NCBI GenBank assembly: GCA_934643435.1
Contig: CAKUCJ010000010.1
Coordinates: forward strand, 1 to 13,442
Source of the DNA: an uncultured Collinsella sp.
Lineage (GTDB): Bacteria > Actinomycetota > Coriobacteriia > Coriobacteriales > Coriobacteriaceae
DNA: 13,442 nt
Direction of reading: 5' to 3'
A program made the translations under genes and the position numbers. Shown here piece after piece: positions 2,042 through 13,442 of this stretch; the stretch's first letter is position 1; each line of letters opens with the position of its first letter. A model generated the notes under the pieces. That model saw only the letters and a program-made list of their open reading frames with translations, was not told the origin of the DNA and did not search any database.

Positions 2042-3922
2042 CTAAATCGTGGGAAACGCGACAACGTCGGCAGGGCGTGCCAGCGTTTCGGCAATACGAT
2101 CCTGCACCTCGAGCAGGCAGTCGAGCAGTAGCGGGTTAAACTCACCGCACTTGCCGTCCAGAATCATCTGAATCGCTTCCTGGTGCGGGATGGCGTCCTT
2201 GTACACGCGCACGCTCGTGAGCGCATCGTATACGTCGGCCACCGAAACCACCTGCGCGGCGATGGGGATATCGTTGCCCTTAAGGCCGTCGGGATAGCCC
2301 TTGCCGTCCCAGCGCTCGTGGTGCCAGCGCGCGATCTGGTACGCGTACTCCAGCAAGGGATTGCCGGCGTGTTGGCGGCCCAACTCAAGCAGCATATCGG
2401 CACCGAGGGTGGTGTGCGTCTTCATGATCTCGAACTCCTCGGACGTCAGGCGTCCGGGCTTGTTGAGGATCGCATCGTCGATCGACATCTTGCCGATATC
2501 GTGCAATGCCGAGGCCATGGCGATCGTGGAACGCTGTTCGTTGTCGAGCGGGAACTTGTCGCTGCGATGCACCAGGCAGCCCAACAGCAGCTCGGTCAGC
2601 TTTTCGATATGCGTGACATGTAGGCCGCTCTCGCCGTTGCGGAGCTCCATGACGCCGGCCATGATATCGATCAGCATGCGGCTGTTCTTGACGCGCTCGT
2701 TGTACTGCTGAGACAGCAGGCTCGTCAGACGACGCTGCTTGGCATACAGGCGGATGGTATTACTCACGCGGCGGCGCACGACGCGCGCGTTGAACGGACG
2801 GTTGATGTAATCCGATGCACCCAGCTCGTAGGCGCGCAGCACCACGTCGTCGGAATCTTCGCTCGAAATCATAATGACGGGCAGGTTATCGGCGGCAGAT
2901 CGACGTGACAGATCGCCCAGCACCTCAAAGCCGTTCATGCCCGGCATGACGATGTCGAGCAGCACAAGCGATAGCTCATCGCCGTAGCGGTCGACCATAT
3001 CGAGCGCCGCGCGGCCGTTGTCCGCCTCCAGGATGCGGTACTCGTCCTTGAGCATCTCGTTGAGGATGACACGGTTCATCTCGGAGTCATCGACGATAAG
3101 AATCGAAGGCTTATCGCTTTGGAAGGTCTCGATTGCATCGGCGTCAGTCACGACCGTACCGGGCTTTGCCTTGGCATGGCTCAACAATTGGACCGCGCGG
3201 CTTACGCCCTCGTCGACCGTCTCGCCATTGATGTGAACACCGCCCACGCATGCCGTAAGGCTTACATGCTCGTGGCCGGGGACAATCGTGGCGTGGACGG
3301 CATCGGATACATGACGCAGACGACGGGCGAAGTCATCGGAGGGGATATTGGGCATGACGGTCACGAACTTGTCGCAGCCAAGGCGCACAAGCTCGTCAGT
3401 CGAGCGAATGCCGCTGCGAATGGCTGCCGCCACAGCGCCGAGCGCGAGATCGCCGGCATGACGGCCACAGGTATCGTTGAAGACCCTAAAATCATCGAGG
3501 TCGATCATCGCCACGCCGGCGTTCATGCGGGCACTACGAAGCTTTTCCTCGTAATATCGGCGATTACGAACGCTCGTCAGCACATCGGTGTAGACAAGAT
3601 CCTCTTCTGTGGTCTCTTGCTCATCGATAGGGCGCACCATCAGCAAAACGTGAGGCTCGCCCTCGACCGTCAAAGAGCGCACACGGGCACGGTACTCAAC
3701 GCCGTCGTTGAGCAGCCGCTCCGATATCTCATCGGAGCTTGCCATGGCCTCAAGACTTGACTGGCGCAGGCAAGGGCACCGATCGCCGGCGAGCAGGCAG
3801 TTGCGGTCGCTCTTGACCTGATCGGCAGACAGCAGACGCACCACGGGGTAGATCTTCGCGGCACGGGCAACCTCGGCGGCAGCCTCCTCGTCGCTTAGAT
3901 TGGCCTCGTGATTATTGAGCAT
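2042..3922 (-). CDS. PAS-like/degenerate GGDEF/REC/HD-GYP cyclic-di-GMP signalling protein
   Basis: A 626-residue cytoplasmic protein with four parts. Residues 1-105 are PAS-like and contain a cysteine cluster (Cys42, Cys49, Cys51 in NCLLAGDRCPCL). Residues 111-255 are a GGDEF domain retaining IDLDDF and ND.CGRHAGD, but the catalytic motif reads GCDKF (182-186), so it is probably not a working diguanylate cyclase. Residues 273-390 are a receiver domain with Asp278-Asp279 and phosphoacceptor Asp323 (LLDIVMP); the usual KPF is RPF. Residues 415-611 are an intact HD-GYP domain with HDIGK (474-478) and HHERWDGKGYPDGL (534-547), the metal and active-site motifs of c-di-GMP phosphodiesterases. The likely role is phosphorylation-controlled c-di-GMP breakdown with the GGDEF part sensing or scaffolding. 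The ATG at 3922 has AAGGGG six bases upstream, favouring it over a TTG at 3937. The Hpt gene follows. Confidence 0.93.
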   Translation of the reverse strand: MLNNHEANLSDEEAAAEVARAAKIYPVVRLLSADQVKSDRNCLLAGDRCPCLRQSSLEAMASSDEISERLLNDGVEYRARVRSLTVEGEPHVLLMVRPIDEQETTEEDLVYTDVLTSVRNRRYYEEKLRSARMNAGVAMIDLDDFRVFNDTCGRHAGDLALGAVAAAIRSGIRSTDELVRLGCDKFVTVMPNIPSDDFARRLRHVSDAVHATIVPGHEHVSLTACVGGVHINGETVDEGVSRAVQLLSHAKAKPGTVVTDADAIETFQSDKPSILIVDDSEMNRVILNEMLKDEYRILEADNGRAALDMVDRYGDELSLVLLDIVMPGMNGFEVLGDLSRRSAADNLPVIMISSEDSDDVVLRAYELGASDYINRPFNARVVRRRVSNTIRLYAKQRRLTSLLSQQYNERVKNSRMLIDIMAGVMELRNGESGLHVTHIEKLTELLLGCLVHRSDKFPLDNEQRSTIAMASALHDIGKMSIDDAILNKPGRLTSEEFEIMKTHTTLGADMLLELGRQHAGNPLLEYAYQIARWHHERWDGKGYPDGLKGNDIPIAAQVVSVADVYDALTSVRVYKDAIPHQEAIQMILDGKCGEFNPLLLDCLLEVQDRIAETLARPADVVAFPTI

Positions 3923-3945
3923 ATGGGGCCCCTTCAATCGTTGCG

Positions 3946-4122: not shown

Positions 4123-4920
4123 CTACGACCCCAGGATTCCGCGGACGGCCTGGGCCGCCGGCGCCGGGCGATCGCGCAGGCCGTTATGCGCTCCAGGAAT
4201 CGTCACGAGCGGGCAGTTCAGGAGCTCTGCAGCCGCTCGCGTGCCCACCTCGCGGGTCGTGCCAATCGAAAGCTCGCCCAAGAGCACGGCCGCCATGGCC
4301 TTTGATGCGCGAACGCGGTCCCAATCGGGAACGTAAGTCATGTTGATCCCGTATTCGTTTGCCATAAAGCTACGCCCATTGCGCAGAGCGTGCTTGGCTT
4401 CCGCCTCGGTTGTTTTGGGAGCTTCGGGATCTGGGTCGCCGATGGCACCCAGGAAGGCCCTCAATGCCCTCGAGACCTTCCCCGCTGCAATCATGTCGAG
4501 CAAAACAGGGGCCGCGCCCAGGCCAACGCCCTCGCCCGTCACGGCGGGCTCGTGCAGGATCGCACGCGAAACGACGGCCGGATTTGTACGAAGAAGCTCC
4601 AGGGCCACCAGCGTACCGGCACTGTGCGCGAGCACATTTGCCGGAGCGCCGATGTGCTCGATAACGGCTTGCAGGTCGGCAGCCTGAACGACGAGGTCAT
4701 AGCGACCGTCCGCAGCATCGCTGCTCTCACCGCAGCCGCGGCGATCGTAGGCAATTACGCGGTAGTCGCGGCTGAGCTCGCGGGCGATGCCGTCAAAAAA
4801 GACGCCATCGACGCAGGCTCCGTGCACGCATACCAGAGCAGGCGCATCGAGCGGCATGTCCGGGCGCGCATACTCGCGACATGCAATCGTGGTGCCCTCA
4901 TTCTCAACCGTAAAATCCAT
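4123..4920 (-). CDS. Alpha/beta hydrolase fold protein (small esterase-like)
   Basis: A 265-residue protein with the alpha/beta hydrolase fold. The HG oxyanion element is at 33-34 (LVCVHGACVDGVFF), followed by YDRRGCGES (58-66) as in small epoxide hydrolase/haloperoxidase-like members. The nucleophile elbow is AHSAG with Ser100, and the late catalytic histidine is probably His245 in IPGAHNG. The acid is not obvious: the usual position after strand 6 reads LLGELS (Glu216), so the triad may be unconventional. There is no signal peptide, so it should be cytoplasmic. Substrate cannot be read from the sequence. It stands alone, 200 bases before the signalling operon and downstream of a palindrome-rich gap. 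The ATG at 4920 has GGGGA seven bases upstream. Confidence 0.88.
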   Translation of the reverse strand: MDFTVENEGTTIACREYARPDMPLDAPALVCVHGACVDGVFFDGIARELSRDYRVIAYDRRGCGESSDAADGRYDLVVQAADLQAVIEHIGAPANVLAHSAGTLVALELLRTNPAVVSRAILHEPAVTGEGVGLGAAPVLLDMIAAGKVSRALRAFLGAIGDPDPEAPKTTEAEAKHALRNGRSFMANEYGINMTYVPDWDRVRASKAMAAVLLGELSIGTTREVGTRAAAELLNCPLVTIPGAHNGLRDRPAPAAQAVRGILGS

Positions 4921-5349: not shown

Positions 5350-5724
5350 TTATTGCGCCAGCACGATAGCCGTGGCCAGATCTCGCTCGTTGGTAATGGA
5401 GACAAGCAACTCGGTTACATCAGCCTCGGCGAGCACCGACGCAAGTGGTCCCGCGAGCGTGATATGCGGTGCGCCGCTAACGTCTTCCAGTGTTTCAACG
5501 ATCCGCAAGTCGAAGCCTTCGGTCGTAAGGCGTGCCAAAGCCTTGAACGCCGCCTCCTTGACGGCAAACTTGCCGGCGAGGACTTGAGCCGTATCATGCC
5601 TTAAGGCAGCCTGGGTACATTCGGCCTCGGTGAAGGTGCGGCGAACGAACGCCCCGTCCAAGTCGGAACAAAGTCGGCGCATCTCCTCAATATCGACCGT
5701 ATCGATCCCTATACCTTTGACCAT
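5350..5724 (-). CDS. acpS: Holo-[acyl-carrier-protein] synthase
   Basis: A 124-residue protein of the AcpS-type phosphopantetheinyl transferases, which move 4'-phosphopantetheine from CoA to the serine of apo-ACP. The N-terminal GIGIDTVDIEEM contains Asp8, the expected Mg ligand; GKFAVKEAAFKAL (51-63) contains Glu57, the second ligand, in place of the common FAAKEAFSKAL; and LLVSITNERDLATAIVLA is the C-terminal strand, normally HVSISH..... The motifs are recognisable but diverged. The ATG at 5724 puts the conserved segment at residues 3-14 as in the family; a TTG 18 bases upstream is the alternative, and neither has a strong ribosome site. It is followed by a clear terminator and separated by 323 bases from the operon that encodes an ACP at 11083-11334, so it may be either the housekeeping enzyme or tied to that ACP. 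Confidence 0.92.
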   Translation of the reverse strand: MVKGIGIDTVDIEEMRRLCSDLDGAFVRRTFTEAECTQAALRHDTAQVLAGKFAVKEAAFKALARLTTEGFDLRIVETLEDVSGAPHITLAGPLASVLAEADVTELLVSITNERDLATAIVLAQ

Positions 5725-6047
5725 GTCGGGCCCATCTTTCAAAATCGAAACAACAGCGACGTTTCAGGATAATACCCCGCACCCAAACCAAAGAACACCG
5801 CGCATATACGACCGCTCGCTGGCACGGACAAAGATGTCCCAATGGAGGGTGTCGAAGCAGGACAAACCCGTCGGCACCGTCCCGCACCTCATATCCCCAA
5901 CGCCGTTGACGTGCGACTTTGCACCGAGCCGACATCCGCGACCTGTGCTTCTATCGCTCCCTTCTTCATGCAGCTGTACCTCACCGAAGGGACGAACCCT
6001 TGAAGCTTGAAAGGCGCGCTTTTGGCGATCCTTCTTGACGAAAATCT
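5725..6047. other. 323-base intergenic region between the MFS gene and acpS
   Basis: I see no gene here. Just after the MFS stop are two competing weak hairpins on the minus strand: AAGGG/CCCTT with a 5-nt loop (5987-6001) and TCCCTTC/GAAGGGA with a 21-nt loop (5958-5992). Neither has a T-run, so termination of the long operon is uncertain. TATTAT on the minus strand (5769-5774) lies about 45 bases before the acpS start and could be its -10 box, but no good -35 accompanies it. Confidence 0.5.
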
Positions 6048-7346
6048 CTATTTACGGCGCAGGGCAAGCATGCCAAAGGCAAAGCAGAGGACCATGCAGA
6101 CGACGGACAGGCCAAACATGAGCGTGAAGCCACCGGGCAGATCGATCACAAAGCCCCAGAAGATCGAGGCGACCGCGCTGCCAAGAGCTCCAGCGATCGA
6201 CACACGCGAGTAGATGTTGGCGTAGTCGAGCGACCCAAAGGCGGAGCGCACCAACAGCGGCGTCTGTACCGTGGTACACGCGTAGACAAAGCCAAAGGCG
6301 AAAGCGCCCGCGAGCAGGGCCACGCTGATTCCGGGGACGAGCGCCATGAGGGCAACACCCAGAATGCCGCAGGCCACGCCAAGCGAGAGCCCGAGCTTGG
6401 CCGACCTGTCGTTGACCACGCCGAGCACGACCTTGCCGATCGCTTGGCCCGCCATGCAGGCGCTTGCCACCACGCCCGAGATCGCAGCAATCGCGGGTGC
6501 GGAGTCAGCAAACGAGAGACAGTACGACGGCAAGAATTGGTAAACCGTCTGGTTGACCGTGATAACGAAGGAGAACACGACAAGCGCAAAGAACGCGGGC
6601 ATGCGCATGGCCTGCGCAGCCATCACACCTTGCTCGGTGGGGGCGGCAGCCGCGCCTTCAGTTACGCTCCCATCCTCGGAAGCAACGTCCTCGGCACCGT
6701 AGGGAAGCAGGCCCTTATCCGCCGGCTTGGAACGAACCACAAGAAACGTGAACGGCAGGGCGACGATAAGCACAATCAGACCGAAGATCAGATACCCCAT
6801 GCGCCAGCCCTCGGCACCCGACGAGATCAGCGCCGTACCGAGCGGGTTAAAGACGACGCCGCCGATACCGGTAAACGCCATGCAGAGGCCCACGAAGAAA
6901 CCGACCCTCTTCTTGCACCACGCGTTGATGAGCGTGGGGACGGCGAGATAGATGAGCGGCGCCGTACCGATACCAAGCGCTATGCCCGCGATATAGAACA
7001 TCCAGACAGCGGTGAAGCGCGACATGGCGACAAGCGCGATGCCATCGAGGGCGACGGCAGCCGAGAGCACAGCACGCGTGTCGAATCGGCTCATAAGCTT
7101 GCCCGCAACCGGCAACATGAGCATCATCGCCAAGTTGAGGATCGAGAAATACATGGTGAACGATGCACGGGCGACGCCAAAATACTCGCTCACCGGGGTG
7201 AAGAAGATACCGGCACAGCTCAGCACGAGCGCGCACGGGATGCCGGCGATCACGATACCGGCAGCCACGATCAGGTATGCATAGTGAAACCCGCTGCGGC
7301 AGGCGGGGGCCTGAGCCCCCGCAGCAGAAGTTGTTCCCAGTGACAC
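6048..7346 (-). CDS. MFS transporter (second carrier of the operon)
   Basis: A 432-residue polytopic membrane protein of the major facilitator superfamily with about 12 transmembrane helices in two halves. The first-half motif A reads GKLMSRFDTR at about 82-91; a charged central loop at roughly 205-240 (SKPADKG...EDVASEDGSVTEG) separates the halves. It resembles monocarboxylate or oxalate/formate-type carriers, which move small organic acids, but the substrate is not readable. The start was set at a GTG at 7346 because AAGGGGGA lies immediately upstream at the usual spacing; an ATG at 7370 inside the end of buk has no ribosome site. The gap to buk is then 10 bases, so it is cotranscribed and is likely to export the acid released by the kinase or import the substrate. 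It is the last gene of the operon. Confidence 0.9.
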   Translation of the reverse strand: MSLGTTSAAGAQAPACRSGFHYAYLIVAAGIVIAGIPCALVLSCAGIFFTPVSEYFGVARASFTMYFSILNLAMMLMLPVAGKLMSRFDTRAVLSAAVALDGIALVAMSRFTAVWMFYIAGIALGIGTAPLIYLAVPTLINAWCKKRVGFFVGLCMAFTGIGGVVFNPLGTALISSGAEGWRMGYLIFGLIVLIVALPFTFLVVRSKPADKGLLPYGAEDVASEDGSVTEGAAAAPTEQGVMAAQAMRMPAFFALVVFSFVITVNQTVYQFLPSYCLSFADSAPAIAAISGVVASACMAGQAIGKVVLGVVNDRSAKLGLSLGVACGILGVALMALVPGISVALLAGAFAFGFVYACTTVQTPLLVRSAFGSLDYANIYSRVSIAGALGSAVASIFWGFVIDLPGGFTLMFGLSVVCMVLCFAFGMLALRRK

Positions 7347-7356
7347 CGCGTCCCCC

Positions 7357-8481
7357 TTATGCCTCGACATCGGCAAAGGCGCCGGGCATCGTGAAGCCCT
7401 TCCAAGAAGGCTCGCCGGTGAAGGTCATGACGTCCTCGGTTCCCTCGAGGGCACGAATGGCACCGGATGCGAGGGCATCCATCTCGAAGTCGCCGCCGTA
7501 GATCTTGACCGGCGCGATCCACTCAACGCGCTCGCGCACATAGCCGGTGAAGTACGGGTCATTGGAGACACCGCCGGTGAGAACGATGCCGTCGACCTTG
7601 CCCTTGAGCGCGGTCGCGAAAGCACCGATATACTTGGCGACCTGGTAGGCCATGGCGTCATAGACGACTTTCGCCCACTCGTCGCCCTCCTCGATGCGCT
7701 TGCAGATGATGCGGGCATCGTCGGTACCGCACAGACCCACGAGGCCGCCGGTCTTGCCAATCACGCCGTCCATCTTCTTCTTGTCGGCGCCCTCGGAGAA
7801 AGCGATCTTAACGACGGGCTTGAGCGGAGCATCGCCCGAGCGGTTGGGCGCGAAGGGGCCGGAGCCCTCGAGCACGTCGTTGGTGTCGATCATACGACCA
7901 TGGTTGTGGCAGGCCACGGAAAGGCCGCCGCCCACGTGCGCGACGATAAAGTTGCCCTCGGCATAGGTGGTACCGAGCTCGGCAGCGCAGCGAAGGGCGC
8001 ATTCCTTCTGGTTGAGGCAGTGCACGTGGCTCTTGCGATAGACACCGGGGTAACCGGTAATACGGGCGACGTCCTCGAGCTCATCGGTATCGGGCTGGTT
8101 GACGGCGTAGGCGGGCTTGCCCACCTGCTGGGCAAAAGCATGCAGCAGCGGCGCACCCAAAATGGCGGGGTGGTTGACGCCGGCATTCATGACGTGGTCG
8201 CAAACCGTATCGTCGATTGCAAAGATGCCACCAACGGTGGGGCCCATGGAGCCGCAGTAGCCGGAGAACGCATCGATGTCCTCGAGCTCGATACCGTGCT
8301 CCTCGAGAGCGGCAAGAATGGTCTCCTTGCGGTATTCGAACTGGTCAGCCGCCTGGTCGAAGCGGGCGAGCTCATCGGCCGGATGGGTGACGTTAAGACG
8401 GAACAGAGCCTCGGTGCCGTCGAACACGGCGACCTTGGTGGAGGTGGAACCCGGGGAGAGGGTCAGGATCTTGTAACTCAT
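7357..8481 (-). CDS. buk: Butyrate kinase (acyl-phosphate kinase)
   Basis: A 374-residue ASKHA-fold kinase that interconverts acyl phosphate plus ADP and the free acid plus ATP in the cytoplasm; in fermenters it runs towards ATP. Family motifs are all present: LSPGSTSTKVAVFD (8-21) for phosphate binding, NHPAILGAPLLHAFA (103-117), HVGGGLSVACHNHGRMID (182-199), GPFAPNRSGDAP (208-219) and LTGGVSNDPYF (301-311), ending with IYGGDFEMDALASGAIRAL. Length is normal for the family (about 355-375). The ATG at 8481 has AAAGGAAG upstream. True butyrate specificity is not assured: branched-chain and other short acyl phosphates are accepted by relatives, and its phosphotransacylase partner here is of the Pta type. 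It lies 101 bases downstream of the small membrane protein and just before an MFS carrier. Confidence 0.93.
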   Translation of the reverse strand: MSYKILTLSPGSTSTKVAVFDGTEALFRLNVTHPADELARFDQAADQFEYRKETILAALEEHGIELEDIDAFSGYCGSMGPTVGGIFAIDDTVCDHVMNAGVNHPAILGAPLLHAFAQQVGKPAYAVNQPDTDELEDVARITGYPGVYRKSHVHCLNQKECALRCAAELGTTYAEGNFIVAHVGGGLSVACHNHGRMIDTNDVLEGSGPFAPNRSGDAPLKPVVKIAFSEGADKKKMDGVIGKTGGLVGLCGTDDARIICKRIEEGDEWAKVVYDAMAYQVAKYIGAFATALKGKVDGIVLTGGVSNDPYFTGYVRERVEWIAPVKIYGGDFEMDALASGAIRALEGTEDVMTFTGEPSWKGFTMPGAFADVEA

Positions 8482-8582
8482 GAAAGCTTCCTTTCTATCT
8501 GGGAAAACGAATCAACAGGGGCAAGCGGTGTTACCGAGGATGAAAATGAAGGCCCGGTGACGGAGACCGGCGGCGTTACCGG

Positions 8583-8981
8583 CTAGCGGTTTTGGATAGC
8601 GAAAAGTACAAGCGACGTCACGTAGCCGATAAGTACGAGCTGGATATACGTCGCGAGCCACGCGGCGACGACATCGCCACCCGCCGGCGTCTGGATCAGA
8701 GCCATGGTGAAGGAGATGCACGTCACGAAGACGAAGTTCTCGACAAAGACTTGGACAATGGGACGCCAACGGTGCTCTCCCACCCATCCGGTCATCGCGA
8801 CGGCAAACCCGGGAACGGGCAGCACGAGTTGCAGCAGCACATTGGTGAAAAACGCCGACGCCACGCCCGGATACCAAGATTGAAATGCGATCTCGGCACC
8901 GCCGATGAGCATCGCCGAAGTGTTGATAACCAACGCAAGCACGAGGTCGCAGAGGATAGTCGCGATATTCCATTTACACAT
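8583..8981 (-). CDS. Small four-helix membrane protein of unknown function
   Basis: A 132-residue hydrophobic protein with likely transmembrane helices at about 6-28, 40-62, 76-97 and 104-128. The loop GWVGEHRWRP (65-74) is the only strongly hydrophilic stretch. I do not recognise the family with certainty; it loosely resembles small DUF2798-like proteins. The ATG at 8981 follows CAGGAGTAG, a good ribosome site that overlaps the stop codon of the esterase gene only five bases upstream, so it is clearly part of the operon. Position between the esterase and the acyl kinase suggests a role in transport or membrane anchoring for this pathway, which is a guess. Confidence 0.8.
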   Translation of the reverse strand: MCKWNIATILCDLVLALVINTSAMLIGGAEIAFQSWYPGVASAFFTNVLLQLVLPVPGFAVAMTGWVGEHRWRPIVQVFVENFVFVTCISFTMALIQTPAGGDVVAAWLATYIQLVLIGYVTSLVLFAIQNR

Positions 8982-8986
8982 GGCGG

Positions 8987-9955
8987 CTACTCCTGATCTT
9001 CAAGGCCGGGAAACGGCACGTCATGGCATGCCGGTCCGAGCAGATGTTCAAGGGACGTTTTGACGGCGCGGGCAGCAGCATGTTGGAACCCACGGGGCCG
9101 TGCGGCGACGGTCTCGGGCATCGAGATGGCACGGAACGTCTCCGTATCGGCCGCATCCTCGATGTAGCCGTGGTAGACCCCCGCGACGGGATTCCAGACG
9201 CTAGGCGCACCCGCATCGGCCATACGGCGGTACAGCGTCTCCGCCTGAGGCAGGAGCGCGTCACCCTCGACCGGGCAGAACACCGTGGGCGGCAACGCGG
9301 CGAGCTCACCATCGCTTGCATACACGGGAGACATCAGCGGATCGGTCTCGTCACGCTCCCCCGCATACATCGCCGAGAACGCGGCCATCTTGTCGACCGG
9401 CAGGTCGCAAGCACGTACGCCGTTCGGATCGATCCGCTCGGCCACATCGAGACATGGATAATGAAGCGCCAGACCCGAGACAGGTGGAGCCGAATTGTCG
9501 CGCTGAGAGAGCAGGGCGTAGGCGACGGCCAGGTTCGCTCCGGCACTGTAGCCCATGAGCACGGCATGGGCCGACGCAACCTCGACCTCACTGCCGTCGA
9601 CGATGCGCCGGACCGTGCCCGCCACGTCGTTGAGTGCGGCGGGAAACGGATGCTCCGGCGCCAAGCGGTACTCGATCCCCACGACGTTGACATCGAAGGT
9701 GTCGCGCACCCAAGCGCGCAACGCATCGCCCTTGCGGGCATCGCCGAGCGCGAAGCCGCCCCCGTGAAGTTCGAACACCACAGGTCGGGGTGACGTGTCA
9801 GCCGCACGATGCAGCCAGCAACCACTCGCGCAACCAAGCTCGAGCTCGGGCATTAGCCACTCTCCCGTCATGACGCGGGCGTCGAGAGCGCGCGCGGTCT
9901 GACGGCGCAGATACGGAAGCGCCGCCGCGAAGCCGCCCACGTCCATATCGGCCAT
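8987..9955 (-). CDS. HSL-family alpha/beta hydrolase (carboxylesterase/acetamidase-like)
   Basis: A 322-residue esterase of the hormone-sensitive lipase family. HGGGF (64-68) forms the oxyanion hole, GYSAG (135-139) holds nucleophile Ser137, YRLAPEHPFPAAL (96-108) is the typical segment after strand 4, Asp232 in EGDALLPQ is the acid and His262 in GVYHGY the base, so the triad is complete. Relatives cleave short- and medium-chain esters and some aryl amides in the cytoplasm; no signal peptide is seen here. The ATG at 9955 overlaps the phosphotransacylase stop in TGATG, implying translational coupling; an ATG three codons later is possible. Coupling to a phosphotransacylase suggests it supplies or removes the acyl group that the pathway handles. 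Confidence 0.93.
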   Translation of the reverse strand: MADMDVGGFAAALPYLRRQTARALDARVMTGEWLMPELELGCASGCWLHRAADTSPRPVVFELHGGGFALGDARKGDALRAWVRDTFDVNVVGIEYRLAPEHPFPAALNDVAGTVRRIVDGSEVEVASAHAVLMGYSAGANLAVAYALLSQRDNSAPPVSGLALHYPCLDVAERIDPNGVRACDLPVDKMAAFSAMYAGERDETDPLMSPVYASDGELAALPPTVFCPVEGDALLPQAETLYRRMADAGAPSVWNPVAGVYHGYIEDAADTETFRAISMPETVAARPRGFQHAAARAVKTSLEHLLGPACHDVPFPGLEDQE

Positions 9956-10950
9956 CAGCGAGCCGAGAGGACGAGCATCGCGATGTCGCCGACGATCTCG
10001 TCGACCGTGGCACCGCGCGAGCTGTCGGCGACAGGACACTTGAAACCCGAGAGACTGTGGCCGTAAGCCGCACCGTGGGCAAAACGCTGGATCAGCTTGA
10101 CGGCAATGTTCGCGGCATTGAGGTCGGGGAACACGAGCACGTTAGCACGGCCGGCCACGTCGCTCTCGCGCTTGACCTTCTTGGCGGCGACAGCCGGATC
10201 GATCGCGGCGTCGAGCTGAAACTCGCCGTCAACGGCGAGTTCGCCTCGACGCTCGAGGACAATCTTGATGGCTTCATCGACACGGTCGACCGAGGCGCCA
10301 GCACCGGACCCATCCGTGGAGAATGACAGGAACGCCACGCGGGGCTCCCAGCCCATCATGGCCGCAGAGCCGTCCGCCGCCGCGATGGCGATGGATGCCA
10401 GCTCCTCGGCCGTGGGCTCGGGGTTGAGGCCACAATCGGTAAAGCAGATGACGCTGCCCTCGGGGCCCTCGAAGCCCGGAGTGTCGACGAGCGCAAAGAT
10501 GCTCGGAACGTCGACGCCCTCGGCGAGACCGATAATCGTCTGCGCCGCCATGAGCACATCGCCCGTGGTGTTGACGTGGCCGCAGAACGTGCAGTCGACG
10601 TCGCCCTGCTCCTCCATCATCATGGCGTAGTACATCGGGTTCTTGATCTTGCGGCGGCTGCCCTTGGCGCTGATGAGACGCGGGCCTCCGGCCATGTAGC
10701 GCTCGGCGAGCACATCGGCCTCAGCCTCGTCAGTGTTGTCGACGATCTCCATGCCCTCGAGCGACACGCCAGCACGCGCAGCGGTCTCCTCGATCACGGA
10801 ACGAGGGCTCACGAGGACCGGGGTACCGATACCCTCGTCGAGCACGCGGCGTGCGGCGAGAAGGGTCTTCTCTGCCTCGCACTCGGGAAGCGCCACACGC
10901 TTGGGCGCGCCCTTGGCGTCCTCGATGAGCTTTTCGATCAGGGTTGCCAT
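9955..10950 (-). CDS. Phosphate acetyl/acyltransferase (Pta-type phosphotransacylase)
   Basis: A 331-residue enzyme exchanging a thioester-bound acyl group with phosphate to give acyl phosphate. Matches to the Pta family run through the chain: RVALPECEAEKTLLAARRV (18-36), NPMYYAMMM (104-112), TDCGLNPEPTAEELASIAI (171-189), EPRVAFLSFSTDGSG (202-216), VFPDLNAANIAVKLIQRF (273-290) and the phosphate-site SRG (311-313). It is closer in pattern to Pta than to the shorter phosphate butyryltransferases, yet pairs with a butyrate kinase. Around 123-136 it has CGHVNTTGDVLMAAQ where Pta usually has an HTTADT- or HSTGDT-like stretch, and the last segment reads SGFKCPVADSSRG rather than QGL.KPVNDLSRG, so the acyl pocket may differ. 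The ATG at 10950 follows GGATGGAG. Downstream it overlaps the esterase gene by one base; upstream, two hairpins separate it from the ACP gene. Confidence 0.92.
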   Translation of the reverse strand: MATLIEKLIEDAKGAPKRVALPECEAEKTLLAARRVLDEGIGTPVLVSPRSVIEETAARAGVSLEGMEIVDNTDEAEADVLAERYMAGGPRLISAKGSRRKIKNPMYYAMMMEEQGDVDCTFCGHVNTTGDVLMAAQTIIGLAEGVDVPSIFALVDTPGFEGPEGSVICFTDCGLNPEPTAEELASIAIAAADGSAAMMGWEPRVAFLSFSTDGSGAGASVDRVDEAIKIVLERRGELAVDGEFQLDAAIDPAVAAKKVKRESDVAGRANVLVFPDLNAANIAVKLIQRFAHGAAYGHSLSGFKCPVADSSRGATVDEIVGDIAMLVLSAR

Positions 10951-10995
10951 CTTGTCTCCATCCTTTCGCAGTGAGTTGAGGCGATGCAGCCTCGC

Positions 10996-11026
10996 TATGG
11001 GATCCGAACCTCTGCCAGATCCCATA
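10996..11026 (-). repeat. Stem-loop 2 between the ACP and phosphotransacylase genes
   Basis: TATGGGATC (10996-11004) and GATCCCATA (11018-11026) form a perfect 9-bp stem with a 13-nt loop. It lies 45 bases upstream of the phosphotransacylase start and has no T-run. Within an operon such a hairpin could stabilise RNA ends after processing or attenuate read-through. Confidence 0.55.
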
Positions 11027-11047
11027 ACGGCGCTGCAACGATTAGAC

Positions 11048-11074
11048 GGGGCGACGGCAGATCGCCGCCGCCCC
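11048..11074 (-). repeat. Stem-loop 1 just after the ACP stop codon
   Basis: GGGGCGACGGC (11048-11058) pairs with GCCGCCGCCCC (11064-11074) at 10 of 11 positions, loop AGATC, very GC-rich. It begins 9 bases after the ACP stop. The minus-strand tail is GTCTAATCG, too poor in T for a strong terminator, so partial termination or 3'-end protection of the ACP message is more likely. Confidence 0.6.
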
Positions 11075-11082
11075 AGTGCGAA

Positions 11083-11334
11083 CTACATCGAGAGGGTGTC
11101 GTCGATGAGCTTCGCAGCGTCGGCGAAGGTCTTGCACTTGTTGAGCTGCATGAAGGGCACCTCGACCTCGTACTCGTCCTCGAGTGCAGAGGCGAACTGG
11201 ACGATGTTCACGCTCTTGCAACCCAAGTCGTCGACAAAGGAGGTCTCGGCCGAAAGGCTGTCACGGTCGCTACCGAAAATCTCGACGGCCTTGTCCTTGA
11301 GAATATCGACGACCTCTTCCTGGAATTCGTTCAT
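11083..11334 (-). CDS. Acyl carrier protein with atypical KSV phosphopantetheine motif
   Basis: An 83-residue acidic helical protein of ACP size and pattern. The attachment region reads DDLGCKSVNIVQFASALEDE (35-54); Ser41 aligns with the serine that carries 4'-phosphopantetheine and the following helix ending EDEYEVEVP matches ACP helix II and strand. The standard DSL is KSV here, so the aspartate normally used by AcpS is Lys40, and Cys39 and Cys67 are unusual extras. The ATG at 11334 follows AAGGAAAGGAA. It sits between an OFA-like carrier (114-base gap) and a phosphotransacylase (132-base gap), away from fatty-acid genes, which suggests a pathway-specific carrier rather than the fatty-acid ACP. 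What loads it is not visible; the AcpS at 5350-5724 may activate it. Confidence 0.88.
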   Translation of the reverse strand: MNEFQEEVVDILKDKAVEIFGSDRDSLSAETSFVDDLGCKSVNIVQFASALEDEYEVEVPFMQLNKCKTFADAAKLIDDTLSM

Positions 11335-11448
11335 GATGTGTTCCTTTCCTTGTGGGACTGGATGCCGGGCGAACACTCGGCTAGGTTTACAAAAGCTTGT
11401 CTGGCGGCTGCGATGTTCCGGCTCAATGGATGCACAGCTGCTAGACGG

Positions 11449-12741
11449 CTACTCTCCGCGGACGTTAGATGCGATCTGCCTGTAGGGCAGCGCAATCACG
11501 GGGACGAGCGCGATGGCGCAGATGACAAAGACCGCGAGCATCACGTTCTGCTGGCCGGCGACGGCGGCGACGGTCGACATGACCGAAACGCCGGCGAAGT
11601 TGAGCACGTTGAAGATGACCTGGATGGGTGTGTAGGCGACTTCAAAGTCCTCACGGCCGTAGATAGAGGCCGTAAGCGACATGCAGACGTTTGCCGCACC
11701 CGAGAGACCGAACATGAACATGCCCGTGGCCACGGCGCAGACGACGGAGTTCGCACCGCCGAGCCTCACTAGGAGACCACCGAGCCCCAGCACGCAGATC
11801 ACGACAAGCGTGGTCTTCTTGGTGCCGATCTTTTGGTCGAGCACGCCGATCAGATAGTGGCCGAGCAGACCGATGGGCCACATGGAGGATAGGAGCACGA
11901 CGCCGAACATCGGGTCCTGGCCATAGGAGGCGAGCGTGGGAACGAGCAGGGCGATCGTACCGGCGCCGACCATCATGGGAAGGCCGGTTCCAAGACCGAT
12001 AAGCCAGGTCTGAGGCGTCTTGAGGACGCGGGCTGTGGTCCAAGGGCTCGTCTTCTTGTACTCGAGGGCAGCCTTGAACTCGGCCTCGAGCTCTTCACGG
12101 CTCACGGACTGGTCGTTATCGGGATAAGCGCCAGCCTCCTCCGGATTGTTCTTGACAAAGAGGAAGACGACGACGGCCGTGATCGCAACGATAGCGGCCA
12201 TAGCCCAGAAGAAACCAGAGATGCCGAAGGCGCTTCCGGCAAACCCCAAGATGATGGGGTTGAGCGTCGCCGAGGAGATGGTCATACCCATGGTGGCGAT
12301 ACCCATGAAGGCACCCTTGGTACGCGGGAACCACGAAGACCCGAGGAGTCCTACGCCGATGGTGGCGTAGGCAACCATCGAGAAGTTGAAGATCACAACG
12401 CCCGCGGCAAAGACCTCGAACGTGTGGGCGCACGCCAGCACGGCAAAACCGATAGCCGACCCGGCAAGGCCGATGACCGAAACCATCTTGGCGCCGATCT
12501 TGCGGCCGAGCGTGCCGAAGAGCACGACAGCGATCAGGCTGATCCAGCCGGCGATGGTGATGACATAGGACATGTCGGTCTGCTGCCAGCCGTACATCTC
12601 GTTAAAGAGGCCGAACAGCGTGTTGGTGGCCGCGTTCCAGAATGAATAGAAGTAGAAGAAGATGAAGCAGGCAATGGTGATGCCCCAACCCTTGGCGCCA
12701 AAATTGGGCAACCAGGCGTTGAATTTCTTGTTTTCTGCCAT
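11449..12741 (-). CDS. OFA-like MFS transporter (oxalate/formate antiporter family type)
   Basis: A 430-residue carrier with about 12 transmembrane helices. Motif A is GTLGRKIGAK (76-85), repeated in the second half as GVLDQKIGTKK; GSSWFPRTKGAFMGIATMGM is characteristic of OFA/monocarboxylate-type MFS members; a charged central loop (about 197-235, NPEEAGAYPDNDQS...EELEAEFKAALEYKK) separates the halves. Family members exchange or co-transport small carboxylates across the cytoplasmic membrane. The ATG at 12741 follows AGGGAG. It lies between the CocE-like hydrolase and the ACP gene in the operon, so it likely brings in the substrate or exchanges it for the acid product. Its sequence differs clearly from the other MFS protein at 6048-7346, so they are not a recent duplication. 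Confidence 0.9.
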   Translation of the reverse strand: MAENKKFNAWLPNFGAKGWGITIACFIFFYFYSFWNAATNTLFGLFNEMYGWQQTDMSYVITIAGWISLIAVVLFGTLGRKIGAKMVSVIGLAGSAIGFAVLACAHTFEVFAAGVVIFNFSMVAYATIGVGLLGSSWFPRTKGAFMGIATMGMTISSATLNPIILGFAGSAFGISGFFWAMAAIVAITAVVVFLFVKNNPEEAGAYPDNDQSVSREELEAEFKAALEYKKTSPWTTARVLKTPQTWLIGLGTGLPMMVGAGTIALLVPTLASYGQDPMFGVVLLSSMWPIGLLGHYLIGVLDQKIGTKKTTLVVICVLGLGGLLVRLGGANSVVCAVATGMFMFGLSGAANVCMSLTASIYGREDFEVAYTPIQVIFNVLNFAGVSVMSTVAAVAGQQNVMLAVFVICAIALVPVIALPYRQIASNVRGE

Positions 12742-12761
12742 AAAAACGGCTCCCTAGATAA

Positions 12762-12795
12762 GGCGGGAGGCGGAGAGAGGCTAGACCCTCCCGCC
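12762..12795 (-). repeat. Stem-loop B in the leader of the OFA-like transporter gene
   Basis: GGCGGGAGG (12762-12770) and CCTCCCGCC (12787-12795) form a perfect 9-bp GC stem with a 16-nt loop. On the minus strand it ends 7 bases before the AGGGAG ribosome site of the transporter, so it could affect initiation. Confidence 0.55.
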
Positions 12796-12802
12796 GGATG
12801 GC

Positions 12803-12826
12803 GCCCCGGGACTTATGTCCCGGGGC
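12803..12826 (-). repeat. Stem-loop A between the CocE-like gene and the transporter
   Basis: GCCCCGGGAC (12803-12812) and GTCCCGGGGC (12817-12826) form a perfect 10-bp stem with a TTAT loop (ATAA on the minus strand). No T-run follows. It begins 64 bases after the CocE-like stop codon and 8 bases from stem-loop B. Confidence 0.6.
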
Positions 12827-12889
12827 CGTCAGGCACGCATGCGTGGAATGCGCACCCCTAAAAATCGTGAACGATCGCGCTCAGGAGAC

Positions 12890-13442
12890 TTAGGCGCAAT
12901 CGCCACGCCAGATGTAGTCGCCCACCTTGTATTTGGGGGGAACGACCGGGATCTGCAGGTAGGACTGGTGCTCGCCACCGGTGTGGATGACATGCATGCC
13001 GTCGCCGTTATCGGTCTTATGGTTCATATCGTTATCGTGGAACCACTCGGTCTTGATAAAGCGACCGGCAATGACGACCTGGAGCTTCTCGCCCTTGTGC
13101 CAGAAACGGGAGTGCGGGTACATCTCCACGTCCACCGGGACGATCTCGCCCGGCTGCATGCGCTCCTCCTTCTCGTGGGAGTGCACGGGCTGGAAGTCGC
13201 TGGCGTACTTGGGGTCGAGGTCGCGGTGGCTGCAGCGGAGGAACCCCCACGCGCCGCGGAAGGGGGCGCCCATGACGCGGATGGGCACGTAGTTACCGTC
13301 GCGGTCCAGCTTGATGACCCAGGGGAAGAGGTCCATGTTGTCGTAGCCACGGCACTCCACGTTGAGGTGGAGCTTCATGTAGCCGGTGATCTCGGTGTCC
13401 TCGGTGAACTGGTAGGTGAACGTCGTGGTCTCGGTCTTGGGG
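12890..13442 (-). CDS. CocE/NonD-family hydrolase, C-terminal part (5' end outside window)
   Basis: The 183 visible residues end at a TAA at 12890. They are beta-rich: YQFTEDTEITGYMKLHLNVE is followed by DLFPWVIKLDRDGNYVPIRVM, FRGAWGFLRCSHRDLD, PGEIVPVDVEMYPHSRFWHKG, EKLQVVIAGRFI and a final HTGGEHQSYLQIPVVP. This is the pattern of the C-terminal jelly-roll of X-Pro dipeptidyl-peptidase/CocE-type hydrolases (PepX_C), including the late HTGGEHQSYLQIPV strand. In that family the catalytic serine, aspartate and histidine are in the preceding alpha/beta domain, which lies beyond 13442, so activity cannot be judged. Members cleave esters, amides or beta-lactam-like acyl bonds. As first visible gene of the operon it probably performs the initial cleavage of the substrate. 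Confidence 0.85.
   Translation of the reverse strand, partial: PKTETTTFTYQFTEDTEITGYMKLHLNVECRGYDNMDLFPWVIKLDRDGNYVPIRVMGAPFRGAWGFLRCSHRDLDPKYASDFQPVHSHEKEERMQPGEIVPVDVEMYPHSRFWHKGEKLQVVIAGRFIKTEWFHDNDMNHKTDNGDGMHVIHTGGEHQSYLQIPVVPPKYKVGDYIWRGDCA

Follow-up and report, generated by a model that had tools for sequence, protein, structure and literature searches.

The 13,442-nucleotide stretch of DNA analysed here (the window; contig CAKUCJ010000010.1 of an uncultured Collinsella sp.) carries on its minus strand a gene cluster that encodes an acyl carrier protein (ACP), a phosphotransacylase of the PTA_PTB family (PTA), a butyrate-kinase-type acyl kinase (BUK), a CocE-type hydrolase and MFS carriers. 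Comparison of these proteins with their relatives suggests, with a probability of roughly one half, that the cluster is a module for catabolism that uses a dedicated ACP in place of coenzyme A (CoA). The genomes compared support the view that ACP, PTA and kinase recur as a unit. A sequence-only reading of this DNA had proposed that an acyl group passes via the ACP to phosphate, and such a transfer draws support from the recurrence of the unit, from the atypical carrier motif of the ACP and from the apparent loss in PTA of two arginines that contact CoA.

A recurring ACP, PTA and kinase unit

The ACP of the window (11083..11334, minus strand; PF00550, PP-binding, 2.2e-09) is a protein of 83 residues with the carrier motif DLGCKSVNIVQF, in which Lys-Ser-Val is found instead of the usual Asp-Ser. 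The listed open reading frame spans 11083-11376, and the likely ATG start at 11334 is preceded by AGGAAAGGAA. All 11 listed NCBIfam ACP models score under their cut-offs for this protein. Lys-Ser occupies the carrier site in 14/14 rows of ACP alignment A2, and Arg-Ser is found in locus L097. Ten genomes with this ACP contain 3 to 12 PP-binding matches each, and Asp-Ser carriers are seen in nine of them (none among the loci returned for G141). The same ten genomes have 2 to 4 AcpS matches each, with an AcpS 6.5 kb or less from the ACP in eight (not in G133 and G223). The sequence-only reading had held that its proposal would fall if the ACP were the fatty-acid carrier. Such a role appears unlikely in view of the carrier motif, the phylogenetic profile and the presence of further ACPs in these genomes.

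When genomes were scanned with an alignment of 32 ACPs, 47 loci were found (L001-L047), and a PTA relative is present in all of the first 18 (L001-L018). The sequence-only reading had made its case depend on conservation of the ACP next to pta and buk, and this is borne out in the ten Coriobacteriia loci (L001-L010): CocE, ACP and PTA follow one another in the window order in 10/10, BUK and the second carrier are present in 9/10 and an AcpS relative lies in range in 10/10. The ACP also adjoins PTA in an Erysipelotrichaceae locus (L011), which carries a PucR-type regulator (PF13556), in Parasporobacterium (L012-L014) and in an archaeal bin (L016), and it adjoins both acpS and PTA in Enterococcus raffinosus (L017). 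In Bauldia (L018) CocE-ACP-PTA is accompanied by AcpS and an acetate-kinase-like gene, and L095 combines CocE-ACP-PTA-BUK with AcpS and carriers. In the Enterococcus raffinosus loci (L017, L100) the ACP, acpS and PTA are found at a contig end, with a phosphoketolase (identified by eye) nearby; no ACP match near 1e-30 was found in the other 19 Enterococcus genomes searched, and a plasmid search with the Enterococcus ACP gave no match.

The phylogenetic profile covers 296 genomes of Coriobacteriia. ACPs of this type (E 1.1e-17 or better) are present in 31 of them; the next matches, at 2.4e-15 and weaker, are other ACPs, at least two of which (G032, G038) have their own PTA nearby. CocE relatives (E 1e-60) occur in 34 genomes, including all 31 with the ACP, which is absent from three CocE genomes (G081, G097, G161; Fisher 6e-39 for co-occurrence). 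The two genes are on the same strand in 31/31, with matches 52-2054 bases apart (358 or less in 27/31). A PTA with 54% or higher identity to that of the window is found in 23 genomes, all of which have the ACP (Fisher 7e-28). The two genes are separated by 13-150 bases in 10 of these and by 2.3-18.4 kb in 11, nine of the latter pairs being on opposite strands, and they are on different contigs in two. In the remaining eight ACP genomes the listed PTA has 45-49% identity, and Arg133 is missing in 7/7 retrieved. ACP searches in other groups gave matches near 1e-30 in 1/199, 2/295, 1/20 and 1/150 genomes, of which only the match in G648 falls outside the genomes used as centres; the lists at E 1e-12 contain mostly weaker ACP matches.

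Sister cassettes have a different front end. A thiolase, a DUF35 protein, a second ACP type, PTA and BUK are found together in seven of the loci L077-L092 (L077, L079, L080, L082, L087, L088 and L092), some of the others being incomplete. The same set occurs in 11/20 loci (L125-L144) chosen from the Coriobacteriia PTA list, with variants in L125, L136, L137 and L138; for G032 and G038 an ACP match on the same contig had already been seen. In L272 and L273 thiolase, DUF35, ACP, PTA, BUK and AcpS stand in a single row. The Cys pattern of the thiolase nucleophile region matches 27/30 rows, and the pattern used for the second thiolase Cys gave no match in the 30 rows. The proteins found repeatedly among the 58 loci compared, namely flavodoxin-like reductases (18/58), PucR-type regulators and hydrophobic proteins, do not reveal the substrate.

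Several further arrangements were observed around these cassettes. Flavodoxin-like reductases, recognised by eye, lie beside cassettes in L077, L079-L083, L086-L088 and L092 and also in L132, L135, L139-L142, L144 and L181; those whose sequence was inspected contain a CTGC motif. These reductases may hint at the substrate. One PTA-ACP-AckA set in L137 is flanked by two thiolase-DUF35 pairs. A third, more divergent ACP-PTA-BUK-MFS set (L103, 9798-13425), with the carrier motif FKSVQ, a Gly at the Asp316 position of PTA and an AcpS 2.5 kb further on, lies in the genome from which L010 also comes. In L125, L127, L128, L129, L130 and L134, PTAs of the new type have no ACP within 2.5 kb, and L086, which shares its genome and contig with L130, carries thiolase-DUF35-ACP2 elsewhere.

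Residues of the phosphotransacylase

The PTA of the window (9955..10950, minus strand; PF01515 1.2e-88) is the proposed acyl-ACP : phosphate acyltransferase. Its listed reading frame is 9955-11025, with a likely start at 10950, and a purine-rich stretch lies ahead of the likely starts of both this gene and the ACP gene. Pfam (0.001) returns PTA_PTB only, and the NCBIfam pta models match under their cut-offs. In an alignment with the Methanosarcina thermophila enzyme, the catalytic residues Ser309 and Arg310 are kept (DSSRG aligned to DLSRG), but Gly is found at Arg87, Arg at Lys90 and Met at Arg133. According to the accessible text of PMC7902834, R535 and K538 of Bdellovibrio MaeB touch the 3'-phosphate of acetyl-CoA and R581 its pyrophosphate, and R535A/E substitutions abolish acetyl-CoA binding. 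Judged by an identical spacing of 46, these residues would correspond to positions 87, 90 and 133. The phosphopantetheine of an ACP has neither the 3'-phosphate nor the pyrophosphate, so that an ACP-dependent PTA would be predicted to lose these contacts.

We compared 76 distinct PTAs, namely 19 of the usual, housekeeping type, taken from 20 loci (L105-L124) after one duplicate was dropped, and 57 others, which comprise every other distinct PTA retrieved by then, with or without an ACP nearby; the window PTA stands outside the 57. Arg87 is present in 19/19 housekeeping enzymes, Lys90 in 19/19 and Arg133 in 18/19 (one His), compared with 4/57 (L016, L097, L136, L137), 0/57 and 0/57 of the others. 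Both arginines are lost in 53/57 of the others and in 0/19 housekeeping PTAs, and a looser text pattern for the CoA loop matches 4/57, at a different place. Ser309 is kept in 57/57 of these proteins and Arg310 in 56/57. An ACP lies within 2.5 kb of PTA in 14/20 of the loci L125-L144, compared with none of the 20 usual-type loci, for which flanks of about 2 kb were available.

The association was also tested outside the Coriobacteriia. PTAs were searched in two further groups, of 295 and 111 genomes, and the best 30 loci of each were taken, 60 in total; after 13 fused malic-enzyme-like domains had been set aside, 47 PTAs were left, including three in reading frames of 717-848 residues and one with Lys for Arg310. 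Among these best-scoring loci both arginines are lost in 5/47. Four of the five have an ACP in their 1.5-kb flanks, compared with 0/42 others, of which five have one flank cut short (Fisher 2.8e-5). In the fifth (G648) an ACP is found 2.1 kb away, and counting it gives a Fisher value of 6.5e-7, with only two controls (L274, L275) read that far. Three of the five genomes were known beforehand through their ACP, and the two new ones (G765, G661) have thiolase, DUF35, ACP, PTA, BUK and AcpS in one row. When loss of Arg133 alone is scored, an ACP is nearby in 5/7 versus 0/40.

Proposed mechanism and alternative explanations

CocE is the most constant neighbour of the ACP (31/31 genomes, 2.1 kb or less, same strand), which naturally makes it the candidate for the enzyme that loads the ACP. 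The sequence-only reading had suggested a search for an acyl-loading enzyme beyond position 13442, but given this proximity the enzyme need not lie further out. The window holds the C-terminal 183 residues (12890..13441, minus strand; PF08530 2.9e-25) of a protein that is about 600 residues long in its relatives, and this part is 89-96% identical in L001-L010. The full-length relative in L001 has S15 and PepX_C domains and scores 190.8 bits with TIGR00976 (cut-off 66.3), compared with 25.4 bits for the window piece alone. The nucleophile Ser is present in all rows of the CocE alignment within the motif GNS[GACW], the corresponding sequence being GSSA in three relatives without this ACP (L178-L180).

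In the proposed mechanism the MFS carriers would import the substrate and an AcpS-type enzyme (5350..5742, minus strand, likely start 5724; PF01648 4e-13) would arm the ACP. CocE would then cleave the substrate and pass its acyl group from the CocE serine to the thiol of the ACP's phosphopantetheine arm (acyl-X + HS-ACP -> acyl-ACP), a role that we favour over its absence, although not by much. The PTA step, in which the acyl group would leave ACP for phosphate (acyl-ACP + Pi -> acyl phosphate), is the best supported: linkage and residues together make it probable, if slightly less so than at first estimated, because the window type of PTA keeps an Arg in the Lys90 column. Finally, BUK (7357..8481, minus strand), whose family assignment is strong (TIGR02707 374.4 bits, cut-off 289.1), would yield ATP and free acid (acyl phosphate + ADP -> acid + ATP), a direction that seems somewhat likelier than not to be correct. 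Formation of a thioester and ATP is poorly served by alkyl esters and amides as donors but well served by retro-Claisen cleavage of a 1,3-dicarbonyl. Since an ordinary ester or amide would hardly pay for ATP, the substrate is more likely to be a 1,3-dicarbonyl (with C-C cleavage) or some other activated acyl donor, and the parallel with the thiolase-DUF35 cassettes may also point to a C-C-cleavage donor.

A number of observations weigh against this interpretation. None of the 29 weak ACP matches (L019-L047) shows a PTA, L010 shows no BUK, and neither CocE nor BUK is found in L012-L014 within the DNA available there. The Bauldia CocE has Asn at the position of the presumed His, which is present in all other rows, and the catalytic acid of CocE is not evident in the alignment. 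With regard to PTA, an Arg occupies the Lys90 column in 18/57 of the non-housekeeping proteins and in the window, so that the 3'-phosphate loop may stay partly basic; the four sequences mentioned above have an Arg aligned at 87; and 12 of the 57 have no ACP within 2.5 kb. Chain 1vmi, which we take to be EutD, lacks the Arg87 loop and keeps Arg133. A single branch with support of 100/100 separates the housekeeping from the other PTAs, so that the residue change may have been one event. Asp316 is Glu in 49/57 and Asp in 6/57, and is neither in L103 and L138. In the accessible text of PMC6461089, activity of the Porphyromonas gingivalis Pta is lost or strongly lowered by D318A, which matches Asp316, and mutation of both arginines had moderate effects in this enzyme and mainly affected Km in M. 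thermophila.

Of the alternatives, the one that survives best is a pathway running in reverse, in which a free short-chain acid would be attached to the ACP by kinase and PTA at the cost of ATP, after which CocE or thiolase-DUF35 would acylate an acceptor in biosynthesis or detoxification. The PTA and kinase reactions are both reversible, and to load the ACP and then form an ester is easy in energetic terms. According to PMC6392133, a thiolase/DUF35-type complex can act as an acylase. We nevertheless regard the reverse direction as unlikely; the carriers and the PucR-type regulator near the clusters would better suit uptake and use of a substrate, although they argue for this only weakly. Less probable again is that CocE is an ACP thioesterase or editing enzyme and that the loader is encoded elsewhere, for example a thiolase-DUF35 pair serving both ACPs. 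Serine hydrolases are often thioesterases, and thiolase-DUF35 is found near CocE-ACP in L077, L079, L080, L082, L092 and others, but CocE-ACP-PTA occurs in L095 and L018 with no thiolase relative within the 17-20 kb read around them.

It is very improbable that Pta and butyrate kinase are an ordinary CoA-dependent pair and that the ACP beside them is unrelated to their function. The family assignments of both enzymes are correct and the CoA loop may be partly basic, as noted above, but the ACP linkage extends over 31 genomes, the two CoA-contact arginines are lost, and 17 of the 20 usual-type loci, all of which lack a nearby ACP, come from ACP-bearing genomes and so provide them with separate Ptas. 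A very remote alternative is that PTA, like its counterpart in hybrid malic enzymes, lacks catalytic activity and serves as a sensor, here one that binds the ACP: the loss of the arginines would fit, but the catalytic Ser and Arg are kept, and the Ser-Arg pair is found in 0/13 of the fused malic-enzyme-like domains.

Returning to the catabolic module, we give even odds to the broader proposal that it represents a general energy-conserving system of the Coriobacteriia, sporadic in other bacteria and in one archaeal bin, in which ACP would replace CoA from bond cleavage to acyl phosphate. Exchangeable CocE or thiolase-DUF35 front ends would pass acyl groups from C-C or activated substrates directly to ACP, and PTA would represent an acyl-ACP-specific subfamily. 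If true, this would constitute substrate-level phosphorylation with a protein carrier instead of CoA, would change how a family now labelled "phosphate acetyltransferases" and "acyl carrier proteins" is annotated, and would point to a substrate from which bacteria of the gut, mouth and rumen gain energy. Its residue signature, combined with the ACP neighbour, offers a way to recognise the family in other genomes.

Cluster layout and comparison with known systems

The eight consecutive same-strand genes described by the sequence-only reading are all present on the minus strand in the order listed, with the CocE gene cut by the window edge, and their families were confirmed by Pfam and NCBIfam, except for that of a 132-residue hydrophobic protein (8583..8981), which has no match in either database and whose "membrane" label was read from the sequence. 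The acpS gene, on the same strand 305 bases past the second MFS carrier (listed starts), had been overlooked. The reported gaps of -1 to 148 bases hold with the likely starts, but BUK and the second MFS carrier overlap by 14-20 bases (listed starts). The first MFS carrier (11449..12741, minus strand; PF07690, MFS_1) sits between CocE and ACP in L001, L010, L074 and L075, and its resemblance to bile-salt, lactate and oxalate-formate carriers scores under the NCBIfam cut-offs. The second (6048..7376, minus strand; MFS_1) has relatives in L001-L009. An HSL-family esterase (Abhydrolase_3; 8987..9955, minus strand; PF07859 4e-41; listed reading frame 8987-10039, likely start 9955) and the 132-residue protein look accessory, their families being found in 4/58 and 9/58 loci in our own gene calls. 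An alpha/beta hydrolase (4123..4920, minus strand; PF12697 3.6e-18) is a possible further accessory, and a 29% relative directly follows PTA-BUK in L011. Promoter and terminator scans gave results near shuffled expectation. Elsewhere in the window, a 631-residue protein (2042-3937) with, by eye, GGDEF-like, receiver and HD-GYP parts adjoins a small Hpt-like protein (1662-2018, also by eye).

In literature seen at title and abstract level and mainly open-access, we found no account of ACP-PTA-kinase catabolism. The accessible texts on acetate metabolism in E. lenta (PMC10234575) and in archaea (PMC4500148) do not mention an ACP-linked PTA. The phloroglucinol pathway (PMC10470551) was not adopted as a model, as its kinases work in a CoA-based route and the words "acyl carrier" are absent from the text.

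Among known systems, the phosphotransacetylase-acetate/butyrate kinase pathway shares the PTA and kinase families, the catalytic Ser and Arg and the expected ATP yield, but the PTA of the window has two CoA-contact arginines replaced and has an ACP and AcpS in its neighbourhood. Citrate lyase and malonate decarboxylase likewise carry a catabolic acyl group on a dedicated ACP; in contrast, the 10 window proteins scanned include no lyase or decarboxylase subunit and no prosthetic-group gene product, an AcpS-type enzyme is present, and the acyl group is proposed to go to phosphate. PlsX catalyses the reaction proposed here, acyl-ACP + Pi -> acyl phosphate, but the window enzyme belongs to the PTA_PTB family, has no PlsX match in Pfam (0.001) and is partnered with an acyl kinase. 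The CocE/NonD hydrolases, of which 3ib3/3iii is the closest solved chain, share the Peptidase_S15 and PepX_C domains and the nucleophile Ser with the cluster CocE, which differs in its GNS[GACW] motif and its ACP neighbour. The front end of the sister cassettes resembles thiolase-DUF35 (ChsH2-like) pairs such as BbsAB and PhlACB, although its BbsB match is under the cut-off and, unlike those pairs, it is joined in a row by ACP, PTA, kinase and, in L272 and L273, AcpS. The component families are known; their combination and the residues of PTA appear to be new.

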